DNA of 64,000 nucleotides from Polaromonas sp. (GTDB taxonomy: Bacteria > Pseudomonadota > Gammaproteobacteria > Burkholderiales > Burkholderiaceae_C): positions 1-64,000 of the forward strand of contig JAQGNE010000032.1 in NCBI GenBank assembly GCA_028291985.1. The letters run 5' to 3'. The translations under genes were made by a program, and so were the position numbers. Shown piece after piece: positions 6,565 through 11,271 of this stretch (the first letter of the stretch is position 1; each line of letters begins with the position of its first letter). The notes beneath the pieces were generated by a model that was given only the letters and a program-made list of their open reading frames with translations, ran no database searches and was not told the DNA's origin.

Positions 6565-7920
6565 TCAATCCACCGGCGCGGAGGCAGCTGGAACCGACAG
6601 GCGATAGCAGCTGGTAAAACCCTTGGGCGCCGCGACCCGCGTGAAAACGCCGCCGTGGATGTGAGCAATTTTTTCCACGACCCGATGGCCAAGCCCAAGG
6701 CCTAGCGAGGTACCCTGCGGCGGCTTACCGTGCCGCTCACTGTCTGACGGCGGCCTGCCGGCGTTGTCGCAAACCTGTATCCAGCCACTGACGGGGTCAA
6801 GCTGCACCTCAACCTGGGTTCCGGCCGGGGTGTGGCTCAAAGCGTTTTCCAGCAAATTTCGCAGCGCCAGACCAAGCAGCAACGGATGCCCCGTGACCGG
6901 AAACGGTCCTGGGCTGAGCAGCGCCAGTTGATGGCCACTGCGCAGGGCAGCTTGCGCAAAACTGGCCAGCTCTTCACGCGCTATCGCATCCACGTCAAGC
7001 GGCTGGCGGGCTTCGGCCAATTCGGTGCGGCTAGCCCGGGCCAGTGCCAGCAGGTCATTGAGCACTTGGCCAGCGCGAAGCGCGTCGCGCTCGAGCTGGT
7101 CCAGAACCGCCATGCGGTGCTGCTCCGGCAACGCCTGCTGCAACGCGCGCGCTTGCAGCGTGACCGAAGCCAGCGGTGTGCGCAGTTCATGCGCAAACTC
7201 ATTGGCAAGGTCTCTTTCCCGGGACACTGCGGCATGGTACCGGCCTGCCAGCGTGTTGATGGAATTGACCACAGTTTGAAACTCAGCCTGCTGGTAAGTG
7301 TTGCGCAGTGGCGATGCCTGCCGGATATCCAGCGCATCGACATCGTGCGCCAGCCGGTAGAGCGGGCGCAGCCCCCGATGAATGGCCAGGCCCAAAGCCA
7401 GCGCCACTACCGGTAGCAGCCAGAAACCCGGCTCGGTGACCTGTTCGGCAATATCCTGCGCCAGATCGTCGCGCTCGCTCACGCTGAGCAGCACCGCAAC
7501 CTTGCGCTCATGGCGCGGCCCGTCCCAGCGCGAAAAAGCGCGCCAGGCCACCGGCGGGTTGCCGAGCTGCAGGGTTTCAAAGCCTTCGCTCTGACTGAAC
7601 GGCACAGGGGCGGCTTCGCCGGAGCGCATCAGAACCCGGCCGCTTGCATCCCAGACCACCAGGCTCATCGAACGCTGGTAGTCGTGGCTTTTCAGATCAG
7701 CCATTTCGGGCAGAGCCGCAACGCTGCCGCGACTGGCAAAATCACCCGAATAGCCCTCCAGCTGCAAAAGCGCCACGCTCGCCAGGTGGCCATCGGTCAG
7801 TTCGTCGGCCTCGTGAATGCCCGTGCGGTAACCCAGGGCCACAAAGCTTGCCCACACCAGCAGCAACGCGCCCAAGGCCCATGCCATCAGGTTTAGCGTC
7901 AGTGAGCGCTGGGTCATCAT
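6565..7920 (-). CDS. Sensor histidine kinase, PmrB/QseC type
   Basis: 451-residue inner-membrane kinase. TM1 is at ~10-32 (LMAWALGALLLVWASFVALG), followed by a periplasmic sensor of ~130 residues and TM2 near 165-185 (FWLLPVVALALGLAI). Next come a HAMP-like linker, the dimerisation box with the phosphorylated His (NEFAHELRTPLAS) and an ATPase domain with N box (LALRNLLENALSH) and G boxes (GLGLGHRVVEKIAHIHGG). Its ATG overlaps the response regulator stop by 4 bases, so the two form one operon. The neighbouring lipid A-modifying gene and the PmrA-like box suggest it senses envelope conditions such as cationic peptides, metal or pH; that is inference. Confidence 0.92.
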   Translation of the reverse strand: MMTQRSLTLNLMAWALGALLLVWASFVALGYRTGIHEADELTDGHLASVALLQLEGYSGDFASRGSVAALPEMADLKSHDYQRSMSLVVWDASGRVLMRSGEAAPVPFSQSEGFETLQLGNPPVAWRAFSRWDGPRHERKVAVLLSVSERDDLAQDIAEQVTEPGFWLLPVVALALGLAIHRGLRPLYRLAHDVDALDIRQASPLRNTYQQAEFQTVVNSINTLAGRYHAAVSRERDLANEFAHELRTPLASVTLQARALQQALPEQHRMAVLDQLERDALRAGQVLNDLLALARASRTELAEARQPLDVDAIAREELASFAQAALRSGHQLALLSPGPFPVTGHPLLLGLALRNLLENALSHTPAGTQVEVQLDPVSGWIQVCDNAGRPPSDSERHGKPPQGTSLGLGLGHRVVEKIAHIHGGVFTRVAAPKGFTSCYRLSVPAASAPVD

Positions 7921-8600
7921 GCGGCGTCCTCGGCGACAAAATAGCCTACGCCGCGCAGGGTTCGTATCGCGCCCTCGCCCAGTTTTTTGCGCAGGTGATG
8001 CACATGTACCTCTACGGCGTTGCTGTCAAGCACGTTGTCCCAGTTGTAGAGCCTGGTTTCTATCTGCGCGCGCGACAGCACCCGCGGGCGCACCTCGACC
8101 AGGGCCAGCAAGATGCCAAATTCGCGCGATGACAGGTTGACGGGCCTGCCGTGAAGCAACACTGACCGCGTGGCGGGATCGATCTGAATCGGCCCACAAA
8201 CCAGCAGCGCTTGCGCCCGGCCGACCGAGCGCCTGCGCAGTGCGCGCATGCGCGCGGCCAACTCGTCGGGGTCAAACGGTTTGGTGACGTAATCATCCGC
8301 GCCCAGGTCCAGCGTCTGGATACGCGAGCTGACCTGGTCGCGTGCAGTCATGATCAGCACCGGCGTGGCACTGTCTGGCAGGCGTCCGGCGGGCGCCTGC
8401 CGCAACCGCTGCAACACTTCTGCGCCGTCGCCGTCGCGCAGACCCAGATCAAGCAAAACCACGTCGAAAGGTTCGGCGCACAAGGCAAGCCACGCTTCGG
8501 CCACGCTGGGCATGACATCAACGGCCCAGCCCAGCTGGCGCAAATGAACTTCCAGCCCGGCGGCAATGCCTTCGTCGTCCTCAACCACAAGTACCCGCAT
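7917..8600 (-). CDS. OmpR-family response regulator, PmrA/QseB type
   Basis: 227 residues: a receiver domain (1-~120) with acidic pair EDD, phosphoacceptor in VVLLDLGLRDGDG, switch Thr in LIMTARD and Lys in VTKPFDPDEL, then a winged-helix DNA-binding domain (~130-225) ending in the conserved HHLRKKLG and IRTLRGVGYFV. ATG at 8600 gives the canonical MRVLVVEDDEGI; the open frame upstream carries no homology. First gene of the operon with the kinase. A perfect YTTAAKNNNNNYTTAA site lies ~107 bases upstream on the same strand (8708-8723), pointing to autoregulation and control of the divergent transferase. Confidence 0.93.
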   Translation of the reverse strand: MRVLVVEDDEGIAAGLEVHLRQLGWAVDVMPSVAEAWLALCAEPFDVVLLDLGLRDGDGAEVLQRLRQAPAGRLPDSATPVLIMTARDQVSSRIQTLDLGADDYVTKPFDPDELAARMRALRRRSVGRAQALLVCGPIQIDPATRSVLLHGRPVNLSSREFGILLALVEVRPRVLSRAQIETRLYNWDNVLDSNAVEVHVHHLRKKLGEGAIRTLRGVGYFVAEDAA

Positions 8601-8678: not shown

Positions 8679-8699
8679 AATGCAATGCAATGCAATGCA
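8679..8699. repeat. Pentanucleotide (AATGC)4 microsatellite in a divergent promoter
   Basis: Four exact AATGC units plus one base, between the response regulator start (8600) and the PmrA-like box (8707-8723). Each unit contains ATG in a different frame. Slippage would shift spacing by five bases in the leader or promoter of the two-component operon, and would change any upstream start for the transferase. Confidence 0.85.
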
Positions 8700-8706
8700 G
8701 CAGTCC

Positions 8707-8723
8707 GTTAAGGATGCCTTAAG
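8707..8723. promoter_or_regulatory. PmrA-type box
   Basis: Minus strand CTTAAGGCATCCTTAA matches the PmrA/BasR consensus YTTAAKNNNNNYTTAA at all fixed positions; on the plus strand GTTAAGGATGCCTTAA matches except for the first pyrimidine. The two TTAA half-sites are 11 bp apart, one helical turn. It sits between the divergent PmrAB-like operon and the PAP2-EptA fusion gene, which is where a shared operator would be expected. The consensus is known from enterics; its use here is inference. Confidence 0.65.
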
Positions 8724-8745: not shown

Positions 8746-11271
8746 ATGCAAATCATGACTAACAAGCGGCTGGCGCTGTACACGGCCGCGCTCGGGCTGG
8801 CACTGATAGCCTGGGATTTTTCTGGCTTTGACCTTGTTCTCGCGCACCTGTCGGGCAACGCCAATGGTTTTCCACTACGGGAAAACTGGTTTTTGGTGCA
8901 AGTGCTGCACGAGGGCGCCCGCCGTGTGGCCTGGCTGCTGGTGCTGGGGCTGTGCCTTTGTGTATGGTGGTGGCCGGGCCAGCGTTGGAGCCACCTGCCC
9001 CGTCTACCGTTCAGCCAGCGCCTGCAGCTGGCGGTGACGCCCCTGCTTGCCGCAGCGGTTGTCAGCCTGATCAAATCATTCAGCGCCATCAGTTGCCCAT
9101 GGAGCCTTGCAGACTTTGGCGGCATCGCGCACTACAGCGCGCACTGGCGTTATCTGCTTCAGCCTGACGGCGGCAGCGGAGGCTGCTTTCCGGCAGGCCA
9201 TGCCGTCTCGGGCTTTGCCTTCGTTGGCGGGTATTTCGCATGGCGCCGGCATTCCGCCCTTGTGGCCCGCCGCTGGCTGGCGGGTGCCGTGCTGGCAGGC
9301 CTTTTCCTTGGAGTGGCTCAGCAGCTGCGCGGCGCGCATTTCATGAGCCACACCTTGTGGTCGGGCTGGATCTGCTGGTGCGTCGCCTGGGCTCTCGACG
9401 CGGCCTGGCCCTACTTGTGCCGACTGGCAAGCACCAACAGTGCCGCCGGCGCTGCGCCAGCCACCGGAGAACTCGCGCTGACGCTGGCGGTTGAACATCA
9501 CACCGTGCGGGCAGTTGCTGGCCTGCACGGTGCGACCTGGTTGCGCCATCCGCTCTGGCTGCTATTGGCAGCTGGCACCTGGATGGCCCTTCCCGCCAAT
9601 CTTTCCTTGTGGCAGGCGCTGGCCGATATCCTCATACCGGGCAAGGCGGCCTGGGCCTTTGAAACCGGCATGGCGGTGATGATTGCAGCAGCGCTTACCG
9701 CTCTGCTCAGTCTTGCCGCCTGGCGCTGGACGCTCAAGCCTGCGTTGATTCTGACCATGTTGATGGCCAGTTGCGGCGCTTACTTCATGACCAGCTACCA
9801 CGTGGTGATTGATTCGGCCATGCTGGTCAATGCACTGCACACCGACGCACGTGAAGTGCGCGATCTGCTCAGTGCCAGGCTGCTTGGGTTTTTGCTGGTG
9901 CTGTGGGTCGTGCCATCAATTGTGGTATGGCGCTGGCCGGTGGTTTACGGCCACTGGATGCGGCGCGCCTGGCAAAATCTGGCGACTTTTGTGGCAGCCG
10001 TTGTGGTGGTAGGCATGGCAGTGCTTGCCAGTTTCAACCCGCTGTCGTCAACCATGCGCAACCACCACGAGTTGCGCTACCGGATCAACCCGCTCAATAC
10101 CATTTATGCGCTGGGCCAACTGGCGGCCGTGCCCTTGCGCCGCAACGAATCGGTGATTGAGCCCCTGGGCCTTGATGCACGCATCGCCATGCCGGCAGCG
10201 GGTGCGCGCCCGCCATTGCTAGTGCTGGTGCTGGGTGAAACCGGGCGCAGCGGCAATTTCAGCGTCAACGGATATGCCCGCAGCACGACGCCTGAGCTGG
10301 CCCGGCAAGACATTGCCAGCTTCACCAATGCATGGTCTTGCGGCACCAGCACCGCCGCGTCGGTTCCCTGCATGTTTTCAAATTTGGGACGCAGCGGCTA
10401 TGAGGCCCGCAGCCGCAATACTGAAGGGCTGCTTGACGTGATCCAGCATGCCGGAATGGCCGTGCTGTGGCTTGACAACCAGTCGGGCTGCAAGGGCGTT
10501 TGCGACCGGGTGCCCAGCGTCAGCACCGCCAACCTGCAGGATGCCGAGCTGTGCCCCAACGACGAATGCTTTGATGCCATCATGCTCAAGGGCCTGGAGC
10601 AGCGCATCGCTTCGCTGCCCGCTGAGCGCCGGGCCAAAGGCGTGGTGCTGGTGTTGCATCAAATGGGCAGCCACGGGCCTGCCTACCATTTGCGCTCACC
10701 CCGGGCTTTCAAGCGCTTCATGCCCGAATGCGCCGACAACTACCTGCAAAACTGCAGCGCGGAAGAGTTGACCAATGCTTATGACAACACCGTGGCGTAC
10801 ACCGACCATGTGTTGGCCTCCGCCATCGACTGGCTCAAGGCGCAGCAGGGCAGCTACGCCCCGGCGCTAATGTTTGTGGCAGACCACGGCGAGTCATTGG
10901 GCGAGCACAACCTTTACCTGCATGGGCTTCCGTATCTGATTGCGCCGGACGTTCAAAAACATGTGCCCTGGATCACCTGGTTTTCTGGTGGCTTTACGCG
11001 GCAAACCGGTATCAGCAGCGCTTGCTTGCGGGCTCACGCCCACGAGCGGGTCACGCACGACCAGTATTTCCATTCGGTGCTGGGCCTGCTGCAGATCAAC
11101 AGCGCCAGCTACGATCCCAGGCGAAATGCCTATGCCGCTTGCGCCGTGACGCCGTTGGCGCCGGATGCCGCAGCGCCGGGCTTGTGGGCAAAGTCGGAGC
11201 CGGTCGAGCCCGCCAGAGCCGCATCGGTGAAGGCAGCCCGTTCATCATCAGCTCCGCGGCCCCGAGGCTAG
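8746..11271 (+). CDS. PAP2 phosphatase - phosphoethanolamine transferase (EptA/MCR-like) fusion
   Basis: 841-residue membrane protein with two enzyme modules in one frame. The N-terminal ~250 residues are a multi-TM PAP2 lipid phosphatase with K110 (KSFSAISCPW), CFPAGH (149-152, the PSGH motif) and RGAHFMSH (R195, H202). The C-terminal ~560 residues are an EptA/MCR transferase. It has five predicted TM segments, then a periplasmic alkaline-phosphatase-fold domain with GETGRSGNFS (E498), CGTSTAASVPC carrying the likely nucleophile Thr536, and D713/H714 in VADHGESLGE. It would move phosphoethanolamine from phosphatidylethanolamine to lipid A phosphates. The PAP2 part might dephosphorylate lipid A or recycle the lipid by-product. 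ATG 8755 or the in-repeat ATG 8680 are alternative starts. Confidence 0.9.
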   Translation: MQIMTNKRLALYTAALGLALIAWDFSGFDLVLAHLSGNANGFPLRENWFLVQVLHEGARRVAWLLVLGLCLCVWWWPGQRWSHLPRLPFSQRLQLAVTPLLAAAVVSLIKSFSAISCPWSLADFGGIAHYSAHWRYLLQPDGGSGGCFPAGHAVSGFAFVGGYFAWRRHSALVARRWLAGAVLAGLFLGVAQQLRGAHFMSHTLWSGWICWCVAWALDAAWPYLCRLASTNSAAGAAPATGELALTLAVEHHTVRAVAGLHGATWLRHPLWLLLAAGTWMALPANLSLWQALADILIPGKAAWAFETGMAVMIAAALTALLSLAAWRWTLKPALILTMLMASCGAYFMTSYHVVIDSAMLVNALHTDAREVRDLLSARLLGFLLVLWVVPSIVVWRWPVVYGHWMRRAWQNLATFVAAVVVVGMAVLASFNPLSSTMRNHHELRYRINPLNTIYALGQLAAVPLRRNESVIEPLGLDARIAMPAAGARPPLLVLVLGETGRSGNFSVNGYARSTTPELARQDIASFTNAWSCGTSTAASVPCMFSNLGRSGYEARSRNTEGLLDVIQHAGMAVLWLDNQSGCKGVCDRVPSVSTANLQDAELCPNDECFDAIMLKGLEQRIASLPAERRAKGVVLVLHQMGSHGPAYHLRSPRAFKRFMPECADNYLQNCSAEELTNAYDNTVAYTDHVLASAIDWLKAQQGSYAPALMFVADHGESLGEHNLYLHGLPYLIAPDVQKHVPWITWFSGGFTRQTGISSACLRAHAHERVTHDQYFHSVLGLLQINSASYDPRRNAYAACAVTPLAPDAAAPGLWAKSEPVEPARAASVKAARSSSAPRPRG

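Follow-up and report, generated by a model that had tools for sequence, protein, structure and literature searches.

Does one uninterrupted reading frame of a Polaromonas genome really join two envelope enzymes, and if so, how did the joined gene arise and what would its product do? The question was raised by the frame 8746..11271 in a stretch of 64,000 nucleotides from contig JAQGNE010000032.1 of a Polaromonas sp. assembly (GCA_028291985.1; this whole stretch is called the window), which codes for a PAP2 phosphatase domain followed by an EptA/MCR-type phosphoethanolamine transferase. We conclude with high confidence that this two-domain open reading frame (ORF) is a genuine gene fusion in an environmental bacterium of the genus Polaromonas. 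The architecture is uncommon but already described, and the fusion is very probably of separate origin. The surface lipid targeted, charged lipid A, is bound by polymyxin antibiotics, and both enzymes probably reshape it.

The fused frame and its domains

The frame and its parts are the following.

8746..11271, plus strand: fused PAP2-EptA ORF, 841 amino acids, stop-free frame
8746..9402, plus strand: PAP2 (LpxE-like) part, residues 1-219, with K110, C117-P118, P149-x-G151-H152, H198 and H202 (from Pfam and alignments)
9403..9549, plus strand: linker, residues 220-268, with a predicted local distance difference test score (pLDDT) of about 50 over residues 231-260 in the AF2 model
9550..11145, plus strand: EptA/MCR transferase part, residues 269-800, with E498, T536, D713, H714 and H726

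The original prediction, made from the letters and the ORF list, had described a single open frame of 841 residues with a PAP2 domain and a complete transferase, and both the reading of the ORF and a Pfam domain search agree with it. The three domains found each exceeded their Pfam gathering cut-offs: PAP2 (PF01569) at residues 93-217 (35.8 bits, cut-off 27.2), EptA_B_N at residues 314-460 (147.5 bits, cut-off 22.3) and Sulfatase at residues 490-784 (184.5 bits, cut-off 25). The AF2 model of the whole protein, built on 95 aligned rows, had a mean pLDDT of 89.8 and a predicted template modelling score of 0.82, and displayed a helical PAP2 part, a low-confidence linker around residues 231-260 and then the EptA part. 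A search of solved structures with the PAP2 profile gave no match at an expectation value (E) of 1, and Foldseek placed the AF2 transferase part on full-length NmEptA of Neisseria (TM score 0.92) and on MCR-1 (TM score 0.88), both scores by target.

The two halves of the window protein are 59-72% identical to their orthologues in the seven nearest relatives, with the order kept and the same regulators adjoining. Since both halves have orthologues in the same order beside the same regulators in these seven, the two-domain arrangement is not a product of chance.

Junction and origin of the fusion

That the two enzyme types normally come from separate genes, as had been stated for this locus, holds in the near relatives: pap2 stands directly 5' of eptA as a gene of its own in 24/24 distinct pairs (loci repeating one genome were counted once), and unfused pairs were found also in other families. 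In 18 of the 24 pairs the pap2 stop and an in-frame eptA start form a four-base overlap (ATG in 15 and GTG in 3, giving ATGA or GTGA). The tail from the SHT motif to the pap2 stop has the same length, 37 codons, in each of the seven nearest relatives (L032, L035, L036, L037, L038, L039 and L123). The window carries at the corresponding place a further feature.

9478..9481, plus strand: CTGA, probably what remains of the ancestral stop/start overlap, with CTG in the fused frame and TGA in frame +1

Counted from the SHT motif, the +1-frame TGA (9479-9481) comes 22 nucleotides later than the pap2 stop does in these seven relatives. A net change of this size is one base modulo three, and merges an ATGA-overlapping pair into one frame; CTG in place of ATG is as expected, because a separate start is no longer needed after fusion. 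Any +1-frame TGA would look alike, so that the CTGA by itself is weak evidence, used here only together with length and frame. We propose an ancestral operon of an lpxE-like pap2 and eptA, probably under a PmrA-type regulator and with translation coupled by the four-base overlap of stop and start, where a net change of +22 nucleotides in the pap2 tail would have brought the two frames into register and made them one gene, the exact event being unreadable in the diverged tail. A single-base frameshift as the whole cause is ruled out, as the tail differs by 22 nucleotides.

A codon model trained on 19 ORFs of the window mildly favoured the fused frame through the linker: over 9400-9540, frame 0 scored 5.1 against -5.9 for frame +1 and -6.9 for frame +2, and over 9400-9477 it scored 0.7 against -3.7 and -3.4. 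Two observations weigh against a real junction. The value of 0.7 is low for an in-frame stretch (median 7.1, 5th percentile 0.2) and lies under the 95th percentile of +1-frame stretches, 1.1; and only one draft assembly, of 94 contigs, displays the junction. They bear on the possibility that the locus really holds two overlapping genes, joined by one wrong base in the pap2 tail, which would also agree with the absence of a second strain among the genomes found, with the unfused state of all close relatives examined and with the plausible length at which the +1-frame TGA would end pap2. However, the tail is longer by 22 nucleotides and not by one, so that an error would be needed on top of a real change of 21; the overlapping start would be CTG, whereas the 18 overlaps of the relatives use ATG or GTG; both other frames score under frame 0 over 9400-9540; and by eye no homopolymer exceeds three bases in 9400-9477. 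An assembly error at the junction is unlikely, and we give this two-gene reading of the locus very little credence.

How far the fused architecture extends was surveyed at several levels. A search of 87 genomes of the genus with the junction DNA found the linker in the window genome only; 36 others matched, none of them past window position 9407. Protein searches gave a match in 35 of 61 genomes of the genus and order, in 68 of 300 from the order, in 41 of 369 from the class and in 80 of 398 from the phylum, in sets that overlap and with E limits that differ (order 1e-40, class 1e-70, phylum 1e-60); at these limits the order, class and phylum searches would miss a distant fused gene. The frames opened one by one were those of at least 700 amino acids with an EptA match, apart from six f20 frames that were read as fused from equal lengths; in the contig scan, 80 of 96 relatives, the best-scoring ones, were covered. 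Outside the window, fused frames were found only in another family of the same order, here called f20 (18/61 genomes: 12 confirmed by script and 6 whose PAP2 and EptA matches lie in equally long frames). Among 215 loci, 197 of them with an EptA match, an in-frame PAP2-EptA arrangement was present only in the window and in the 12 f20 genomes. Other long frames proved to be of different kinds: two had no PAP2 match (L204, L207), two had the PAP2 in a different frame (L205, L210), and in one the PAP2 sat in a frame of 703 amino acids with no EptA match (L215).

In a tree of 88 EptA rows, the window gene stands beside the unfused L032 (SH-aLRT 98), within the unfused Polaromonas pairs, and the f20 fusions fall in another clade. 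A single fused clade of the window and 11 f20 fusions was rejected by the approximately unbiased (AU) test (p 3.2e-6, 12 rows versus 28, with one long row, L177, left out). Because of this placement and this rejection, we read the window gene as a fusion that very probably arose independently of those in f20. The tree, of the EptA half only, was made by a quick method; 21 of its 85 inner branches are weak and loci without an adjoining PAP2 were sampled one in three. A very early single fusion would require many later splits, each restoring two genes, and is unlikely.

PAP2-MCR fusion proteins were published in 2021 from the gut bacteria Sutterella, Parasutterella, Duodenibacillus and CAG-521 (PMC8296556), and f20 would appear to be that group. 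The window gene shares with them one open frame, an N-terminal PAP2 and a C-terminal EptA/MCR part; unlike them, it lies outside the f20 clade, has a host of the genus Polaromonas and known unfused sister genes, and keeps the PxGH histidine.

Predicted activities of the two parts

The transferase part is the clearer of the two. It scored 546.3 bits against the NCBIfam model NF028537 (phosphoethanolamine--lipid A transferase; cut-off 500) over residues 276-793, and E498, T536, D713, H714 and H726 are kept in 57/57 rows with letters at those columns (alignment A1), with E498, Thr536 and D713/H714 at the positions first assigned to them. These residues comprise the nucleophilic threonine and the metal ligands. 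Transfer of phosphoethanolamine to lipid A is the activity predicted for this part. Among the named families MCR-1 to MCR-13, it scored below the cut-off of MCR-5 (380.5 against 1250 bits) and of the other numbered models listed. Resistance-gene surveys may label such chromosomal genes mcr, and call for caution on this point.

The PAP2 part calls for more care. The canonical PAP2 motif reads K-x6-R-P, P-S-G-H and S-R-x5-H-x3-D. Alignment with E. coli PgpB (61 further rows, including the window and some genomes repeated) placed K110 and the PAGH of residues 149-152 as first described; R195 and H202, which had been taken for catalytic, are not canonical PAP2 residues, the third-motif histidine being H198, and a second alignment with other rows agrees. 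K110, P118, G151, H152 and H198 are kept from the motif, and the columns of the first-motif arginine, the third-motif arginine and the aspartate hold C117, Q192 and H202. In an alignment of the window, its unfused relatives and one Halomonas row (A2, with the f20 fusions left out), K110, C117, P118, P149, G151, H152, H198 and H202 are invariant in 39/39 rows and Q192 is common to at least 90% of them, which indicates that the three deviations are features of a subfamily.

LpxE of R. etli and of one Xanthomonas share K127, P135, P164, G166, H167 and H213, which correspond to K110, P118, P149, G151, H152 and H198 of the window (PMC8306577). Residue spacing agrees inside motif one and between motifs two and three; between motifs one and two there is a difference of 2 residues. 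On these grounds we liken the PAP2 part to the LpxE-type PAP2 found with EptA, without classing it as a proven member, and we favour, on balance, a lipid A phosphate as its substrate. It also resembles the hpap2 that goes with mcr-1, which likewise accompanies a transferase and agrees in the K, C-P, H and H columns; unlike the window, hpap2 is a downstream gene of its own with PAAH for PxGH, and its partner is a numbered MCR.

Several results weigh against an LpxE-type phosphatase that always acts first. The PAP2 part is without the canonical first-motif arginine, third-motif arginine and aspartate; scored alone against NF028538 (PAP2 family lipid A phosphatase) it reached 59.8 bits, under the cut-off of 275. 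Among the f20 fusions the PxGH histidine is lost in 6/11 sequences (5 Ala, 1 Gln), and being fused is thus no guarantee that a PAP2 works as a phosphatase. With PRK11598, which models the E. coli-type EptA, the EptA part reaches 478.5 bits, against 308.3 bits with PRK09598. The first presumably acts on phosphates and the second presumably stands for the H. pylori enzyme; if this holds, the PAP2 need not act before the transferase, which may also act on intact phosphates.

With regard to the substrate, the PAP2 part might instead act on undecaprenyl pyrophosphate or phosphatidate and, by setting lipid-carrier or phospholipid metabolism right, help the transferase. Expression of mcr lowers that of four E. 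coli undecaprenyl-pyrophosphate phosphatase genes, and maximal colistin resistance came with linked hpap2 (PMC7559476); canonical motif residues are also missing from the subfamily. Yet the bacitracin resistance described under heading 2.5 of the same paper came from the mcr genes and not from hpap2, no NCBIfam undecaprenyl-diphosphatase model matched the PAP2 part at E 0.01 (PAP2_lipid_A was the better of two matches, below its cut-off), and the LpxE-EptA precedents given below point elsewhere. We regard this substrate as unlikely.

The PAP2 part could, alternatively, be without catalytic activity and serve the transferase as a membrane anchor or regulator, as the six f20 sequences with alanine or glutamine for the PxGH histidine suggest, since the five EptA residues examined are kept there. 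The window, however, retains the residues invariant in the subfamily, and the ratio of nonsynonymous to synonymous substitution rates (dN/dS) between window and L032 is 0.15-0.19 for PAP2 and 0.09-0.18 for EptA (two methods), values that, to the detriment of our own reading, span all time since L032 and not since the fusion, with dS near saturation. A silent part is accordingly quite improbable for the window. The six f20 fusions without the PxGH histidine are L161, L171, L172, L174, L182 and L184; their five examined EptA residues are intact, and the PAP2 there may be inactive.

The preferred reading, an LpxE-type PAP2 coupled to EptA, has precedents in two-gene systems. In Capnocytophaga, LpxE and EptA come from genes overlapping by 20 bp, deletion of lpxE alone gives the polymyxin B phenotype of the double deletion and EptA seems to need a free 1-position; the same two-step route is described for H. 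pylori (PMC4730577). The lpxE-eptA overlap of Xanthomonas is ATGA, with a regulator pair near or next to lpxE, and one Xanthomonas lipid A holds both PP-EtN and P-EtN forms (PMC8306577). These operons resemble the window in their paired activities and gene order, and differ in making two proteins where the window makes one. By analogy with them the fused protein may remove a phosphate and then add phosphoethanolamine.

The EptA N terminus is cytoplasmic. LpxE has six helices and both ends in the cytoplasm (PMC8306577). Because of this shared side, PAP2-first would be the order that can be fused without an extra membrane helix. The product would be a single inner-membrane protein remodelling lipid A on the periplasmic side. 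A phosphate of lipid A is the most likely group for its PAP2 part to cut off; the transferase would then add phosphoethanolamine from phosphatidylethanolamine, through T536 and zinc, at the same or a neighbouring position, and under envelope stress the cell surface would thereby become less negative. The sequence itself shows the fused frame, its position amid unfused relatives, the synteny, the box-like site and the conserved residues. From these we infer how the junction arose, what each part catalyses, on which substrate the PAP2 acts, in what order the steps run and whether being fused brings an advantage. The whole account, fusion history together with a two-step lipid A modification of LpxE-EptA type, seems to us the best explanation and somewhat probable. 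A sequential exchange at one position is a tentative suggestion, rather doubtful as it stands. More speculative still is a single-chain lipid A head-group exchanger evolved at least twice from LpxE-EptA, in which the 1-phosphate would be swapped for phosphoethanolamine and the intermediate handed from PAP2 to transferase, with Polaromonas as the recent case.

The original prediction had offered two couplings, phosphate removal with phosphoethanolamine addition or recycling of the diacylglycerol by-product. The former has a strong precedent, by analogy, in LpxE-EptA; the latter did not hold up. Diacylglycerol is indeed the by-product of EptA, and kinases recycle it; PAP2 enzymes release diacylglycerol from phosphatidate, and recycling by one that makes it is a poor fit on this biochemistry. 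A search of the window genome with the DgkA-type model (PF01219) gave no match at E 0.001, and DAGK_cat (PF00781) gave one match.

That the same two enzymes have been joined a second time, apparently independently, suggests cooperation between the transferase and the accessory PAP2 encoded beside eptA/mcr genes. The role of this accessory PAP2 is still called uncertain in PMC7559476 and PMC10285318. The fusion, its close unfused relatives and the PmrA-type box offer a clean system for the phosphate that PAP2 targets and for the coupling of the steps.

Regulators and the PmrA-box-like site

Upstream of the fused gene lie two divergent regulators and a box-like site.

6565..7920, minus strand: QseC/PmrB-like sensor histidine kinase (E. 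coli BasS: 28% identity over 281 columns)
7917..8600, minus strand: divergent PmrA/QseB-like response regulator (E. coli BasR: 39% identity)
8707..8723, plus strand: PmrA-box-like site GTTAAG-GATGC-CTTAAG, sole TTAA-N7-TTAA in the 64-kb window

The response regulator scored 201.2 bits against NF007928 (PmrA), the best of the 25 models shown and under that model's cut-off of 330. A divergent regulator adjoins pap2 in 23/24 distinct pairs, with L022 as the exception. The PmrA box consensus consists of tandem YTTAAK half sites with a 5-nucleotide gap, and the site at 8707-8723 matches 11/12 positions of this consensus. All 22 scanned pairs of the 24 (L022 and L107 left out; stretches of 150-403 nucleotides) have a site with 11 or 12 of 12 positions, and with the window included the score is 12/12 in 18/23 loci and 11/12 in 5/23. 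Of 4000 random 160-nucleotide stretches drawn from the window, 0.45% reached 11 (the site itself fell within some of the stretches), and the same scan of E. coli controls gave 11 for ais-arnB, 12 for eptA and 12 for pmrR. Control of the fused gene by a PmrA-type regulator is thereby very likely, as judged from these sequences. A promoter and terminator scan gave no match.

The closest comparison is the BasR/PmrA-controlled eptA (pmrC) of E. coli, which likewise has an EptA-type enzyme (37% identity over 504 columns), a PmrA-like regulator and a box-like site. Unlike it, the window gene has a PAP2 part, and its regulators are divergent, whereas eptA, basR and basS adjoin on one strand in E. coli.

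An alternative in-frame ATG at 8680, upstream of 8746, would give 863 residues. As the box-like site sits between the two ATGs, a start at 8746 or later is favoured. The site ends 22 nucleotides before the ATG at 8746, with a similar spacing in L032, and the transcript may have a very short 5' leader or none, or translation may begin further on.

Some related loci show further arrangements. In L127, L128 and L131, 3 of the 8 fetched stretches of this kind, pap2 stands beside a PmrA-like regulator despite having no eptA downstream. A dgkA gene lies near the regulator pair in some relatives (L105, L108 and L109). On a Halomonas plasmid (L195, 1312-4049), dgkA, pap2 and eptA stand in a row, the last two, going by the annotated coordinates, in the same frame and 24 nucleotides apart with a stop between them.

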